Assembly: GCF_018069925.1 (NCBI RefSeq)
Contig: NZ_JAGPXB010000006.1
Span: forward strand, 1-64,000
DNA: 64,000 bases
Origin: Flavobacterium erciyesense
Lineage (GTDB): Bacteria > Bacteroidota > Bacteroidia > Flavobacteriales > Flavobacteriaceae
Direction of reading: 5' to 3'
Below, one piece after another: positions 10,987 through 16,945 of this stretch; position 1 is the first letter of the stretch; each line of letters begins with the position of its first letter. The translations under genes and the position numbers were made by a program. The notes beneath the pieces were generated by a model, which worked only from the letters and a program-made list of their open reading frames with translations, did no database searches and was not told where the DNA came from.

Positions 10987-12762
10987 TTAATCATTCTTCT
11001 TTTGTTTTGCTTCAAAGACTTCCATTGCTTTTTCGAAATCTTTCATTTTCTTTTCGAACTCTTCCATTTCCTCGTTAAATGGTTTCATTTGTTTTTCAAA
11101 TTCCTCCATTTTTTTTTCAAAAGCTTTCATTTGTGGTTCCATGGCTTCCATTTTTTTATCAAAGGCTTTCATTTTTTTATCAAATTCAGCCCATTCTTTT
11201 TCGTTTTTGTAGTTACGAACTCCTGATGGTGCTTTTGGTGCAGCTGGAAAAATAGGCGCTTTTGGTGTTATGAAATTAAACTTCGGCGCTACTGGAGGTA
11301 CTGGTGGCTGAGGGCGCTCTATTACGCTACCATGTTCGCCGATGTAATTTTTGGTAATAATTCGGATAGAATTTCTTTTTCCTTGTTCGTCTTTAGTAAC
11401 ATTTACGCTTGTGATTGCGCTAGGTAGTAAACTTTCCGCTTCTAGGGCACTCACACGTTTGTCATTTACGAACACCTCAGTATCTTCAGGGATGCCATTT
11501 TTTTCAGTTCTAATCTGTTTAATAACAGTTACGTTGTTTTCTTTTTTAACGACGGATAGATTATTTGGATCAATGCGGTCTAGACTTACTTCATTCGACG
11601 AAAATATGTTTCCGCTTCCGATTGTGCTTGAGCTTTCCTTGGTGAAAATTTTAATAACAGATTTATCATTATTTTTTTCAACATTAACAGTTGCAATATC
11701 GTTCGGGTTTGTGCTGTCCAATTCTTTTTTGGTTACCTTTTTTCCGTTGATAAAAATACTGGTGTTTTCATCTGTAATTTCAGGAAGATTTTTTGATACT
11801 AATTCGCTTGTTTTACCTTTTTTCACAGTATCTGATACGGCAAGAGTACTAGTGTTTTGATTTTTTGTGTTAGAACTAATTGTTGTACTAGTTTTCTCTT
11901 GCGCAAGTACTTCAATTTGAAATAATACAAAAAAGGCGACTAAGGCAGGAATAACTGTGGTGTATTTCCAAGAATTCCATTTTTTTGATTGATTTTTGTT
12001 TAACATAACGATTCGTTTTTTGATTAATGATTGATAAAAAGGATTGGTAAGCGCAACACAATTTTGGTGTGTTGTAATTTTTAAAAGTGTGAATTGGTAT
12101 TCTTTTTTGTTAGTTGTTTTTTGAATTGCATGATGATCTGCAATGAATTCTAAATTTTGCACCATCGCTTTTTTGTAAAGCCACACAAGCGGATTAAACC
12201 AAAAAACAATACAAAAAATGCGGCTCAATAAAACGTCAGCCGAGTGGTATTGGGCGCTGTGAACTTTTTCGTGTGCAATTATATTATTGAGTTCATTAGC
12301 GCTGTACAGTGATGAATTGTACACTATTGTTTTAAAAAAGGAGAAAGGCGCTGTGTTTTCAGTTGTATCTACAAAAGTGAAACCCTTTATTTTTTCTGAG
12401 ACATGCATTTTTAGAATTCGCTGAAGTTTGTATATGTCTAAAATAAACTTTCCAGCTAAATATAAAACTCCCAAACCATAGCAAATACTGCTAATAAGCC
12501 ACCAATTAATTGTGGGAGGAGCTTCGGTTTTGTAGTCGCGCACCGGAAGATTTGTCCAATCAATAGGGTTTGGATTGGAATCTACCCAAATAATTTCCGT
12601 GTAAGTAAGCAACGGAAATACGGCCGAAGTCACTAAACCTACTAATAAAAACCATCGATTTCCAGTAAAAAACGTCTCTTTGCGGAGCAACACGTAATAC
12701 ACTGCAAAAAACAATGCTAGTAAGCCGCTGGCTTTAATGAAGTAGAGTTGAAGTGGTTCCAT
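10987..12762 (-). CDS. M56 (BlaR1-like) membrane metallopeptidase with heptad-repeat tail
   Basis: 591 residues. Membrane segments lie near residues 5-23, 37-55, 88-106, about 185-200 and 268-286. The zinc-peptidase motif is HEKVH (about residue 165), with further family residues in NPLVWLYKKAMVQNLEFIAD. In BlaR1 systems this domain, on sensing a signal, leads to cleavage of the BlaI repressor encoded upstream. Unlike classical BlaR1 there is no penicillin-binding domain. Instead the periplasmic part has two similar modules (IFINGKKVTKKELD... and VFVNDKRVSALEAE...), then a Pro-rich linker. It ends in eight consecutive 7-residue units of the form M-x-x-F-x-x-x (about residues 530-588), a likely coiled coil. 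The signal is unknown. Confidence 0.87.
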   Translation of the reverse strand: MEPLQLYFIKASGLLALFFAVYYVLLRKETFFTGNRWFLLVGLVTSAVFPLLTYTEIIWVDSNPNPIDWTNLPVRDYKTEAPPTINWWLISSICYGLGVLYLAGKFILDIYKLQRILKMHVSEKIKGFTFVDTTENTAPFSFFKTIVYNSSLYSANELNNIIAHEKVHSAQYHSADVLLSRIFCIVFWFNPLVWLYKKAMVQNLEFIADHHAIQKTTNKKEYQFTLLKITTHQNCVALTNPFYQSLIKKRIVMLNKNQSKKWNSWKYTTVIPALVAFFVLFQIEVLAQEKTSTTISSNTKNQNTSTLAVSDTVKKGKTSELVSKNLPEITDENTSIFINGKKVTKKELDSTNPNDIATVNVEKNNDKSVIKIFTKESSSTIGSGNIFSSNEVSLDRIDPNNLSVVKKENNVTVIKQIRTEKNGIPEDTEVFVNDKRVSALEAESLLPSAITSVNVTKDEQGKRNSIRIITKNYIGEHGSVIERPQPPVPPVAPKFNFITPKAPIFPAAPKAPSGVRNYKNEKEWAEFDKKMKAFDKKMEAMEPQMKAFEKKMEEFEKQMKPFNEEMEEFEKKMKDFEKAMEVFEAKQKKND

Positions 12763-12798: not shown

Positions 12799-13167
12799 CT
12801 AGCTGTTTTGTTCTTGTTGCTCAATCATATTTAAAATTTCACGCAACTCAGCTGCCGAAATTTTTTCTTCTTGTGCAAAATGGGAAACCATATTTTTATA
12901 CGAGCTGTTAAAAAACGTATCAATTGCGGTATGCATAAAACGCTTACGGTATTCTTCGAGGCTCACTGTTGGGAAATACTGATGCGAATTGCCATAGGCG
13001 GTGTGCGATACATATCCTTTTTCTTCAAGATTACGAACTATAGTTGATAATGTATTGTAATGCGGTTGGTCTTCGGTAATTTCATTCATAATGTCTTTCA
13101 CGAAAGCTTTTTGTAGCTTCCAAACAATGTGCATGATTTCTTCTTCTTTGTTAGTAAGTTTTTGCAT
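12799..13167 (-). CDS. BlaI/MecI/CopY-family repressor
   Basis: 122 residues, usual family length. The winged helix reads LTNKEEEIMHIVWKLQKAFV then YNTLSTIVRNLEEKGYVSH (about 39-57), and the C-terminal helices serve for dimerisation. It is 36 bp upstream of the M56 peptidase gene, the standard repressor/protease pair. BlaI proteins bind palindromes over their own promoter and are cleaved after signalling through the M56 partner. Three identical-arm palindromes over a good promoter are found directly upstream, which strongly supports autoregulation. The controlled resistance or stress genes are not evident; the pair itself may be the whole operon. Confidence 0.93.
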   Translation of the reverse strand: MQKLTNKEEEIMHIVWKLQKAFVKDIMNEITEDQPHYNTLSTIVRNLEEKGYVSHTAYGNSHQYFPTVSLEEYRKRFMHTAIDTFFNSSYKNMVSHFAQEEKISAAELREILNMIEQQEQNS

Positions 13168-13184
13168 GATGTTTTTATTTGATT

Positions 13185-13215
13185 CAAACGTACAACTATA
13201 TTCCTAGTTTGCAAA
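13185..13215 (-). promoter_or_regulatory. Promoter of the blaI-M56 operon
   Basis: On the minus strand -33 TTTG (13212-13215), 19-bp spacer and -7 TACGTTTG (13185-13192) match the Bacteroidota housekeeping consensus TTTG-N19-TAnnTTTG. The start codon is 17 bp downstream of the -7 box. Confidence 0.75.
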
Positions 13216-13249
13216 CTATTTTTATAGTTATTTAACTAAATTTTTAGTT
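13194..13249. promoter_or_regulatory. Three tandem BlaI-type operators, AACTA-N6-TAGTT
   Basis: Three 16-bp palindromes have identical arms at 13194-13209, 13214-13229 and 13234-13249, exactly 20 bp apart. The first lies between the -33 and -7 boxes, the second covers the -33 box, and the third is upstream. The spacers differ, so the arms are what is conserved. Binding by the adjacent BlaI-family repressor is inferred. Confidence 0.7.
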
Positions 13250-13365
13250 TTTGGTATTTTTTTTGTAGTTAAGAGCTTGTTATTTAATCGAATACTTGTT
13301 TTTTTAGTAGTGTTTTGAAATTGAAAACGTTTTGATAGATTTAAATGGGTTTCTGGAAACGGGTT

Positions 13366-13482
13366 TGCGTGAGGGATAGGAGCAAACCGCCGCAGCGGTG
13401 CAGATAGCCCGACGCCATAACAGCAAAGGGGCTACTCAAAATAATTATGAGTAGCCCCTTTGCTGTAATGGGGGCACGCCCC
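13366..13482. repeat. Composite inverted-repeat intergenic element with 19-bp hairpin
   Basis: This block is GC-richer than its surroundings. Outer arms GCGTG (13367-13371) and CACGC (13475-13479) flank a small hairpin ACCGC-CGCA-GCGGT (13386-13399) and a perfect 19-bp stem (13420-13438 with 13448-13466, 9-nt loop). The text GCGTGAGGGATAGGAGC and GATAGCCCGAC resembles intergenic repeats I recall from Flavobacterium genomes. It lies downstream of the MFS gene (minus strand) and may also end its transcription. Confidence 0.6.
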
Positions 13483-13498
13483 AATTTTTAAAAGGATT

Positions 13499-14725
13499 TT
13501 ATTTTACAGTTGTTTTTTCTTTCTGAACCATTTTTTGCACCCAAACGCAACCTGCAACGGCCAAAATGCCCAATGTGCCCATAAAAAACCAATTGGCTTG
13601 ATAACCATACGAGGCAATAATTTCGAGTCCCGTTTTAGAACTCGCAATGTGCGCCAAACTAAAACTCATGGTAAACAGCGCCATGTAGCGTCCTTCGTGA
13701 CCTTTCGGAGCGCGACTCAGAGCAAACGAGTTGGAAAAGGGAAAAATAAACATTTCGCCAAACGTGATAAATAGAATACTTACAACTAGGATTCCTGCCC
13801 AAAAATGAATTAATAACACATAAAAACTAAGCGCCATAAGTAAGGAACCCCACAAAATAATTTTGAGCTTGTCAATGTTTTTACGCTGACTGTAGCTAAC
13901 AATTGGCATTTCGAGAAAGAAAATCAGTAAGCCGTTTAAAGACAGTAACAAACCACTTTGAAACTCGGTCAGGCCAAATTTTTCGTTGTGGTACAAAGGT
14001 AAAGTGGTGAAAAGTTGAAAAAATAGTACTGCGGTGACAAAACACACAAACAGAAATATCCAAAAAATTTGATCTTTGAAAACCGAAGTTGGCAAATCAG
14101 TTTCGGCCTGATCTGTTTCCAAATCTGCTGGTTTTTTGCGCTCTTTCACGAGCAACCAAAAAATCAAAATCGAGATAATACAAGAACTACCATCAACCCA
14201 AAAAAGTCCGCTGTATCCCAAATTCATAATGATTAATCCGCCCAGCGCTGGTCCTGCGGTGAATCCTAAATTTACGGCCAATCGAACTAAAGTGAGCGCT
14301 CTGGTGCGGTTTTCGGGCTTTGCGTAGGTGGCGAGTGATACAAACATGGCGGGTCTAAACATATCAGCAACCGTCATAATGCAAAACATACTCAAACAAA
14401 GTCCCCAAAATGTACGCACGAATTGCACCGCAAACAGCAGTAATCCGCTGGTAAATAAGCTGAAAACCATGATTTTGTAAAAACCAATTTTATCAGATAA
14501 TTTTCCGCCCAACCATGAACCTAACATCGAACCAAAGCCGAAAGCGACCATAATCCAGCCCACTTGCTCGTATGAAAATTGTAAATCCTCTTTTAAATAT
14601 TTTGATAAAAACGGCAAAACCATCGTGCCGGCCCTATTGATGAAGGTAATTAGCGTCAAAATCCAAACTTCTCTGGTAAATCCTCTAAAATTATTGATGT
14701 AGCGTGTAAAAGCAGTTTGCAGCAT
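13499..14725 (-). CDS. MFS transporter
   Basis: 408 residues with about 12 hydrophobic segments. The family loop between helices 2 and 3 is visible as GSWLGGKLSDKIGFYKIMVF (about 67-86). A cytoplasmic loop near 195-210 (ERKKPADLETDQAETD) splits the two six-helix halves. It resembles drug- or metabolite-exporting MFS proteins of the MdtG/DHA1 kind, but the substrate cannot be told. It begins at MLQTAFTRYINNF. A TAAATTTG box lies 20 bp upstream on its strand, and a dispersed repeat abuts that promoter. Confidence 0.85.
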   Translation of the reverse strand: MLQTAFTRYINNFRGFTREVWILTLITFINRAGTMVLPFLSKYLKEDLQFSYEQVGWIMVAFGFGSMLGSWLGGKLSDKIGFYKIMVFSLFTSGLLLFAVQFVRTFWGLCLSMFCIMTVADMFRPAMFVSLATYAKPENRTRALTLVRLAVNLGFTAGPALGGLIIMNLGYSGLFWVDGSSCIISILIFWLLVKERKKPADLETDQAETDLPTSVFKDQIFWIFLFVCFVTAVLFFQLFTTLPLYHNEKFGLTEFQSGLLLSLNGLLIFFLEMPIVSYSQRKNIDKLKIILWGSLLMALSFYVLLIHFWAGILVVSILFITFGEMFIFPFSNSFALSRAPKGHEGRYMALFTMSFSLAHIASSKTGLEIIASYGYQANWFFMGTLGILAVAGCVWVQKMVQKEKTTVK

Positions 14726-16231: not shown

Positions 16232-16945
16232 ATGGCAGAATGGACAGAGAGAGCAGAACTTTTATTTAAAAAAGAAGGTCTGACTAATTTACAAAATGCA
16301 AACGTACTCGTGGTAGGATTGGGCGGTGTAGGCTCATTTGCTGCTGAATTTTTAGCTAGGGCAGGCGTGGGTAAAATGACAATTGTTGATGGTGACGTGG
16401 TAGATATAACTAATATCAACAGGCAATTACCAGCTTTACACTCTACAGTAGGACAACCAAAAATTACAGTTGTAGGAGACCGTTTGCAAGACATCAACCC
16501 CCAATTACAACTAACGCGAGTGCAAGAATTTTTGTCGCCTGAGCGTGCTTTTGAAATTGTTACTCCTGATTTTGACTATGTTTTAGACTGCATTGACAGT
16601 GTAACTCCAAAACTAAACTTGATCATAGCGGCCAAACGCAAAAGAGTAAAAATTATTAGTAGTATGGGCGCTGGTGGAAAAATGGAAGCATCGAAAGTAA
16701 AGGTTACCGATATCACTAATACTGTGAATTGTTTCTTTGCTAAAACTATTCGCAGGCGTTTAAAAGAAGTCAAAATAGACAAATTAAAAGTCGTTTTTTC
16801 TTCTGAAATTCAAGACGAATCTAGTTTAAGAATGACCGACGGCTCTAATTTTAAAAAGTCGTTTTACGGAACCAACAGTTATATGCCAGGTTTGTTTGGG
16901 TTGTATGCTGCTGAAACGGTGATTCGTTATTTGATTAAAAAATAG
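16232..16945 (+). CDS. tcdA: tRNA threonylcarbamoyladenosine dehydratase
   Basis: 237 residues. TcdA (CsdL) is a ThiF/E1-like enzyme that uses ATP to cyclise t6A37 of tRNA to ct6A. The nucleotide-binding region is VLVVGLGGVGSFAAEFLARA (about 24-43), followed by DGDVVDITNINRQLPAL (about 52-68) with its catalytic Arg, then the CIDS motif and SSMGAGGKMEASKVKVTDI. It follows tatD by 40 bp and may be read from the same promoter. Confidence 0.92.
   Translation: MAEWTERAELLFKKEGLTNLQNANVLVVGLGGVGSFAAEFLARAGVGKMTIVDGDVVDITNINRQLPALHSTVGQPKITVVGDRLQDINPQLQLTRVQEFLSPERAFEIVTPDFDYVLDCIDSVTPKLNLIIAAKRKRVKIISSMGAGGKMEASKVKVTDITNTVNCFFAKTIRRRLKEVKIDKLKVVFSSEIQDESSLRMTDGSNFKKSFYGTNSYMPGLFGLYAAETVIRYLIKK

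Follow-up and report, generated by a model that had tools for sequence, protein, structure and literature searches.

We identified a tandem array of three palindromes, AACTA-N6-TAGTT, that overlaps the promoter of a blaI-like gene in Flavobacterium erciyesense. In the 64,000-nucleotide stretch of DNA analysed here (the window), the palindromes begin at 13194, 13214 and 13234, and the steps between them are exactly 20 bp. The operon present in the window consists of two genes, blaI and then a gene encoding an M56 membrane metalloprotease, with the array positioned over the blaI promoter. Taken together, the observations are best explained if the array serves the BlaI-like repressor, whose gene follows immediately, as its autoregulatory operator, and we consider this very probable on the basis of the sequence comparisons described below.

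The promoter is of the Bacteroidota type, and consists of a possible -33 element, TTTG (13212–13215), and a -7 element, TACGTTTG (13185–13192), which are both on the minus strand and separated by 19 nucleotides. A consensus of TTTG/TANNTTTG is given for Bacteroidota-type promoters (PMC6847099). Operator 1 (AACTATATTCCTAGTT, 13194–13209) sits in the spacer between the two elements, and the -7 element begins one nucleotide past it. Operator 2 (AACTATTTTTATAGTT, 13214–13229) shares two bases with the -33 TTTG, and operator 3 (AACTAAATTTTTAGTT, 13234–13249) is located 5' relative to the promoter; no strand is assigned to the palindromes. As an earlier note on this DNA had described, the three sites have identical arms and different spacers, and the appearance of predicted BlaI-type operators over a Bacteroidota promoter is supported. 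Among 139 tandem-type genes, TAnnTTTG begins 0–1 nucleotides past operator 1 in 114. Because the spacing from the -7 element to the start is 4–5 nucleotides in F. johnsoniae (PMC6847099), the blaI leader would be about 12 nucleotides long. The promoter had been called near-perfect, and although TTTG-N19-TACGTTTG is present as described, this wording was generous given the G at -9. In F. johnsoniae promoters, for which the consensus is TAHHTTTG, G is reported virtually never at -10 or -9 (PMC6847099), whereas 89 of 114 tandem-type promoters carry G at -9 (TAnGTTTG). This residue perhaps reflects a weak core promoter, or is perhaps a piece of the regulatory site.

Other repeats are found nearby. 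An inverted repeat at 13415–13471 of the window, with arms of 28 nucleotides that are 93% complementary and separated by a single nucleotide, is located 3' of an MFS transporter gene (13499–14725, minus strand) and is probably a terminator. By eye, a similar palindromic element (GCGTTAGGGATAG...AACGCC) is visible immediately 5' of the blaI start codon in ten loci (L029, L032, L034, L039, L059, L060, L061, L065, L085 and L090), and operators, where found, are upstream of this element. A relative of the element is present in the window at about 13364–13417, and one 78% copy is found elsewhere in the genome.

The repressor gene (12799–13167, minus strand) encodes a protein of 122 amino acids with the recognition helix PHYNTLSTIVRNLE and no cysteine. 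Residues 4–117 match the winged-helix family PF03965 over profile positions 1–115 of 115 (E = 5.3e-33), and among solved structures the protein matches MecI (1sd6, E = 6.8e-9; 1okr and 1sax, E = 1.1e-8) and BlaI (1sd4, E = 5.5e-6). The canonical site TACANNTGTA is absent from the 350 nucleotides upstream of the window blaI, its nearest occurrence in the window being at 16465, and it was rejected as the window operator, with AACTA-N6-TAGTT present there instead. TACANNTGTA is a trait of characterised members and not of the PF03965 protein family. The NCBIfam CopY model scores 52.1 bits against a cut-off of 121.95, and copper sensing through a C-terminal CxC metal site was rejected, since the repressor has no cysteine.

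The gene for the M56 protein (10987–12762, minus strand) encodes 591 amino acids that match PF05569 (E = 8e-15). HEKVH at residues 164–168 and EFIAD at 205–209, the latter read from the sequence, are spaced as H201, E242 and D246 are in BlaR1 (PMC9834060). The NCBIfam BlaR1 model scores 45.7 bits on this protein against a cut-off of 400. Pfam found no penicillin-binding sensor domain in the 591 amino acids up to E = 1, and beta-lactam sensing by the window M56 protein is thus unsupported. H96–F97 of the repressor aligns with the N-F cleavage site of MecI and BlaI, which in Staphylococcus aureus BlaI lies between N101 and F102 (PMC9834060). F97 is kept in 60 of 80 representatives; at P1 of the proposed cut, 64 of the 80 have F and six have H, in place of N.

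The tandem 36-mer is present in 116 of 299 genomes of the family. In a sample of the phylum it was found in 41 of 395 genomes. The genus, with F. erciyesense counted, accounts for 21 of these out of 24 sampled, other genera in the family for 3 out of 17, and the class beyond its own order for 17 out of 49; it was found neither in the 8 genomes from other families of the order nor in the 297 from outside the class. Relatives of the repressor are common, with representatives in 153 of 199 sampled family genomes.

We examined 79 named Flavobacterium orthologue loci, which are the distinct ones among the best 80 of 567 confirmed matches. An exact site lies within 250 nucleotides upstream of blaI in 69 of these. 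Nine of the remaining ten are a second blaI behind a blaI that bears the array, and one (L039) has no site. The earlier note had named absence of the palindromes 5' of orthologous blaI–M56 pairs as a refutation, and this is clearly not what is seen. With one mismatch per site allowed, the step between adjacent sites is 20 bp in 125 of 125 cases. The M56 gene directly follows blaI in 78 of the 79 loci, with HExxH in each; at the other (L056) the sequence ends too early. Exact motifs number 162 in the 19,636 bp 5' of blaI and 26 in 463,619 bp elsewhere, where the latter include those preceding the first blaI of double loci, and the reversed control motif has no match 5' of blaI in these loci.

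In the 69 loci the arms of sites 1 and 2 carry 1.6–2 bits per position. The outer arm of operator 3 carries less and is the least conserved in the orthologues, while the inner arm is kept. The stretch 43–60 nucleotides before site 1 carries 0.04–0.61 bits. Because these loci were selected by the motif, we repeated the comparison with alignments anchored on TAnnTTTG alone, an element that is missing in 9 of the 79 loci. In 63 of the 70 loci that have it, an exact AACTA-N6-TAGTT ends one nucleotide before the anchor, and the arms of this set carry 1.4–1.9 bits as against 0.16 at spacer position 6. Shared ancestry of the related loci inflates these counts, but the contrast between arms and spacer is independent of kinship. 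The arms are conserved while the spacers drift, in support of the earlier note.

Thirty-eight tandem loci, including that of the window, were fetched with their flanks. In 33 of these the array is no more than 200 bp upstream of a blaI, and in two it is 550–631 bp upstream, where a gene on the same strand intervenes. The other three (L104, L094 and L153) have no blaI within the fetched flank. When L104 was fetched more widely (L414, genome G156), three sites spaced by 20 bp, one of them with a mismatch, were seen to head four close same-strand genes, which encode a PF00144 serine hydrolase, a 342-amino-acid protein, BlaI and an M56-like protein, in this order. The 342-amino-acid protein has 43–45% identity to proteins behind blaI-detached arrays in L145 and L146, and the presence of this family in an operon with blaI–M56 ties the detached arrays to BlaI control. 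Members of the family are 342, 327 and (cut) 216 amino acids long, begin with a signal-peptide-like sequence and contain, by eye, an HExxH-like motif (HENFH or HEHFH); Pfam gave nothing above cut-off for the two members scanned. The L094 array precedes an RNase E/G gene, the L153 array precedes a MacB/FtsX gene, and the array at L144:2758–2793 precedes a gene for a barrel-like protein, which scores 25.6 bits for OMP_b-brl where the cut-off is 28.7. Given such neighbours, the role of the arrays may be wider than autoregulation.

The operon itself also varies. In L101 and L106 short proteins with no Pfam match up to E = 0.01 are encoded between the array and blaI, and the operon therefore carries variable extra genes. 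In a same-genus genome (G127, L149) two consecutive blaI–M56 pairs are located behind one array, and the proximal blaI frame is shorter, with stops in its alignment; a double blaI is found in nine named loci too. At its end the M56 protein of L149:2428–4284 carries a plug domain of the TonB-receptor type (PF07715, E = 6.3e-8, residues 547–613), which is a possible clue to the M56 signal.

We gathered 261 distinct blaI genes, many of which are close relatives; the genes used for the counts given here are also those from which the class motifs were derived. Among the 206 genes whose first varying helix position is N, 165 have one or more exact copies of AACTA-N6-TAGTT within 350 nucleotides (permuted arms: mean 0.42, maximum 7) and 41 have none. 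None of the 55 genes with a T or S helix has this motif, and 36 have TACANNTGTA. Three of the 165 AACTA-N6 genes also carry TACANNTGTA, and two N-helix genes carry TACANNTGTA alone. The helix PH[FY]NTLSTIVR[GSV] occurs with AACTA-N7-TAGTT (5 of 5), YTT.AS, for which the rule was written as [FY]T[TS].A[ST], with TACGA-N5-TCGTA (9 of 11), YN[TS].AT with CTAAT-N2-ATTAG (3 of 3) and TT.AT with CTACA-N2-TGTAG (27 of 30). These distributions suggest that five predicted operator types follow the sequence of the recognition helix. Counted from the dyad centre, CTA is at -6 to -4 in AACTA-N6, CTACA-N2 and CTAAT-N2 as read from the sequences, and these three codes therefore have a common register.

Rules fixed beforehand were applied to 62 unseen genes of two families, collected with query proteins from the training set and including no group-3 gene, and the outcome agreed in part. 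The predicted operator was found for AACTA-N7 in 6 of 6 genes, for CTAAT-N2 in 5 of 6, for AACTA-N6 in 21 of 32 (seven more had N7 and four had none) and for TACGA-N5 in 4 of 11. When the last rule is read strictly as YTT.AS, which is a post hoc reading, it holds in 4 of 5, and YTT.AT proteins give 0 of 6. Proteins fitting no rule had AACTA-N6 in 2 of 7 cases. All seven additional N7 cases have PHF or PHI helices. However, such helices are also found with N6 (L344) or with neither motif (L343 and L367), and clade may thus weigh as much as helix. A two-by-two table of helix and operator, which omits 31 representatives without a recognised operator, gave 37/1 against 0/11 representatives (Fisher p = 4e-10). 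A tree of the 80 representatives, in which the helix columns were kept, columns were few and 39 of 77 inner branches are open, has one independent pair on supported branches (two in all) and three operator changes. With so few independent events on the tree, we rejected the helix–operator link as a case of repeated evolution.

The genome carries a second BlaI (group 3, L147:2328–2696), which is also in an apparent operon but differs from the window repressor in its helix, PATTTVATLLKRMI, and in the canonical-type site upstream, CTACATTTGTAG. This site (L147:1861) is 467 nucleotides upstream of the group-3 blaI and precedes an ORF that presumably belongs to the operon, and in group-3 orthologues the motif is at -33 to -93. 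The contig ends within the ORF that follows the group-3 blaI, and the 110 residues available from the start of this ORF have no M56 match. The earlier contrast with operators of the TACA/TGTA type thus holds for the window gene, but does not extend to the other blaI of the same genome, which has a TACANNTGTA site 5' of it.

Staphylococcal and Bacillus BlaI/MecI–BlaR1/MecR1 systems (the bla and mec divergons) likewise have a PF03965 repressor beside an HExxH M56 protease, and the repressor governs its own operon, as is proposed here for the window repressor. Three operators are also described for B. licheniformis BlaI (PMC3305447). In contrast to bla and mec, the window has AACTA-N6-TAGTT arms rather than TACANNTGTA, in a regular 20-bp tandem array, an M56 protein in which the sensor domain of BlaR1 and MecR1 was not found, and a two-gene operon without a lactamase or PBP gene. 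The CopY/CopR copper repressors are of the same family and have a 16-bp operator, RNYKACANNTGTMRNY; AACTA fits its outer RNYKA in the same register, whereas the inner CA/TG is absent in the window sites (PMC7253601). The window repressor also differs from CopY/CopR in lacking cysteine and in having a protease as neighbour, not a copper exporter. For BlaI_0696 and BlaI_1845 of Clostridium thermocellum, arms of GTCTAT and GACTAT were obtained by DAP-seq and EMSA, and ordered dyad pairs 5' of the repressor's own operon are termed an apparent strict requirement (PMC8457756). These arms, from another phylum, have CTA placed as in the window sites. The motif of BlaI_0696, GTCTAT-N5-ATAGAC (PMC8457756), differs in its length of 17 bp and has CTA positioned as in the N7 class. 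We found no description of a Bacteroidota BlaI operator among the matches listed from the open-access literature, and the passages searched in mycobacterial BlaI papers provided no usable motif. What is new is the AACTA-N6-TAGTT version of the operator; Firmicutes were already known to have this repressor family, operators in tandem and arms of the CTAT type.

Single sites occur at background. With up to two mismatches the window contains 73, compared to a mean of 63.8 in shuffled sequence, and 73 was reached in 15 of 100 shuffles. The whole genome contains 14 exact single sites (the three of the array included) and 22 matches to the reversed control, so that a lone site carries no meaning, and a regulon read from single sites genome-wide was rejected. 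The tandem 36-mer, however, is unique to the window promoter in the draft genome even when three mismatches are allowed, while its reversed control gave two matches. Background frequency, a second outcome that the earlier note had held against its own proposal, is thus true of single sites, but the tandem array is set apart, and it is the array rather than the single site that is the regulatory unit. Palindromes arising by chance in AT-rich DNA, or common descent with no function involved, could account for the frequency of single sites and for the likeness of related Flavobacterium loci. This explanation is contradicted by the conservation of the arms relative to the flank and to spacer position 6, by the array in other families of the class, where it is beside BlaI proteins of about 40–50% identity, and by a reversed control with 0 matches in 299 genomes, and we give it next to no weight. 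A different transcription factor might instead read the array while the BlaI-like protein reads another site. The three of 38 tandem loci with no blaI in the fetched flank are in favour of this, although L104 was resolved by the wider fetch and only L094 and L153 remain. We consider it highly improbable, given that 33 of the 38 arrays are close upstream of blaI, that neighbouring BlaI proteins of different helix class go with different operator types, albeit in few independent events, and that CTA at -6 to -4 is in register with the known consensus for CopY.

The spacing of neighbouring dyads is less simply explained by the helix than had been suggested. In the N6 class, pairs within 60 nucleotides of each other (one mismatch allowed) have a 4-bp gap in 232 of 268 cases, and 20 of the rest have 2 bp and form the 18-bp clade. 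The gap is also 4 bp in 6 of 6 N5 pairs and 4 of 5 N7 pairs, which are small numbers. Dyads of 15, 16 and 17 bp thus step mostly by 19, 20 and 21 bp, or dyad length plus four. Selection of 20 bp so that the dimers lie on almost one face of the helix and bind cooperatively, as the first reading of the sequence had it, is consistent with a step of about two helical turns that is invariant in the group. However, this cause is weakened by the N5 and N7 steps, by the paralogue clade that steps by 18 bp (20 pairs), and by the pneumococcal relative CopY, for which no cooperativity is reported (PMC7253601), and we regard it as rather unlikely. Abutting dimers that leave 4 bp between dyads, and not helical phase as such, probably determine the step. 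This rule is not universal, since a class relative (L215) steps by 23 bp and group-3 sites are 27–28 bp apart. The 18-bp pair is present in 19 of 20 fetched genomes in paralogue group 2; in 18 of 20 of the 18-bp genes a TAnnTTTG or TAnnTTAG element shares one base with the second site, and a further site is often found downstream of this element. Alternatively, a dimer could read the divergent TAGTT-N4-AACTA between neighbouring sites, which is present in 134 of the 139 tandem-type genes and would agree with the decay of only the outer arm of operator 3. Yet this palindrome is an automatic by-product of tandem AACTA-N6-TAGTT sites, five genes have a single exact dyad with no partner, and the 18-bp clade retains N6 but has only 2 bp between sites; we therefore think it very unlikely that the divergent form is the one recognised.

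For the preferred reading of the array as the operator of its own blaI, comparison shows the position, conservation and class of the operator and its pairing with the genes, and from these we infer binding, repression, proteolysis and dimer–dimer contact. Counting against it are the 41 N-helix genes that lack an exact site, the arrays in front of other genes, the weakly conserved outer arm of operator 3, the residues at P1 of the proposed cut, and pneumococcal CopY with its lack of cooperativity. Each AACTA-N6-TAGTT would take one repressor dimer, with dimer 1 occupying the promoter spacer and the other two reaching upstream. The bound dimers would hold RNA polymerase off the blaI–M56 promoter. 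On sensing its signal, the M56 protease would cut BlaI at H96–F97, and this cleavage would derepress the operon.

More broadly, BlaI proteins of the class may use at least five orthogonal codes (AACTA-N6-TAGTT, AACTA-N7-TAGTT, TACGA-N5-TCGTA, CTAAT-N2-ATTAG and CTACA-N2-TGTAG), each set by a few helix residues, with several coexisting per genome without cross-talk and with one fixed 4-bp inter-dimer gap in three dyad classes. We offer this tentatively, as a generalisation whose chances fall a little short of even. The 4-bp gap predicts contact between dimers. The table of helices and operators makes the protein–DNA specificity of the family testable by residue swaps. With a conserved operator, the targets of the repressor would be readable from sequence, and reporters become possible with which the signals of the M56 proteins may be found.
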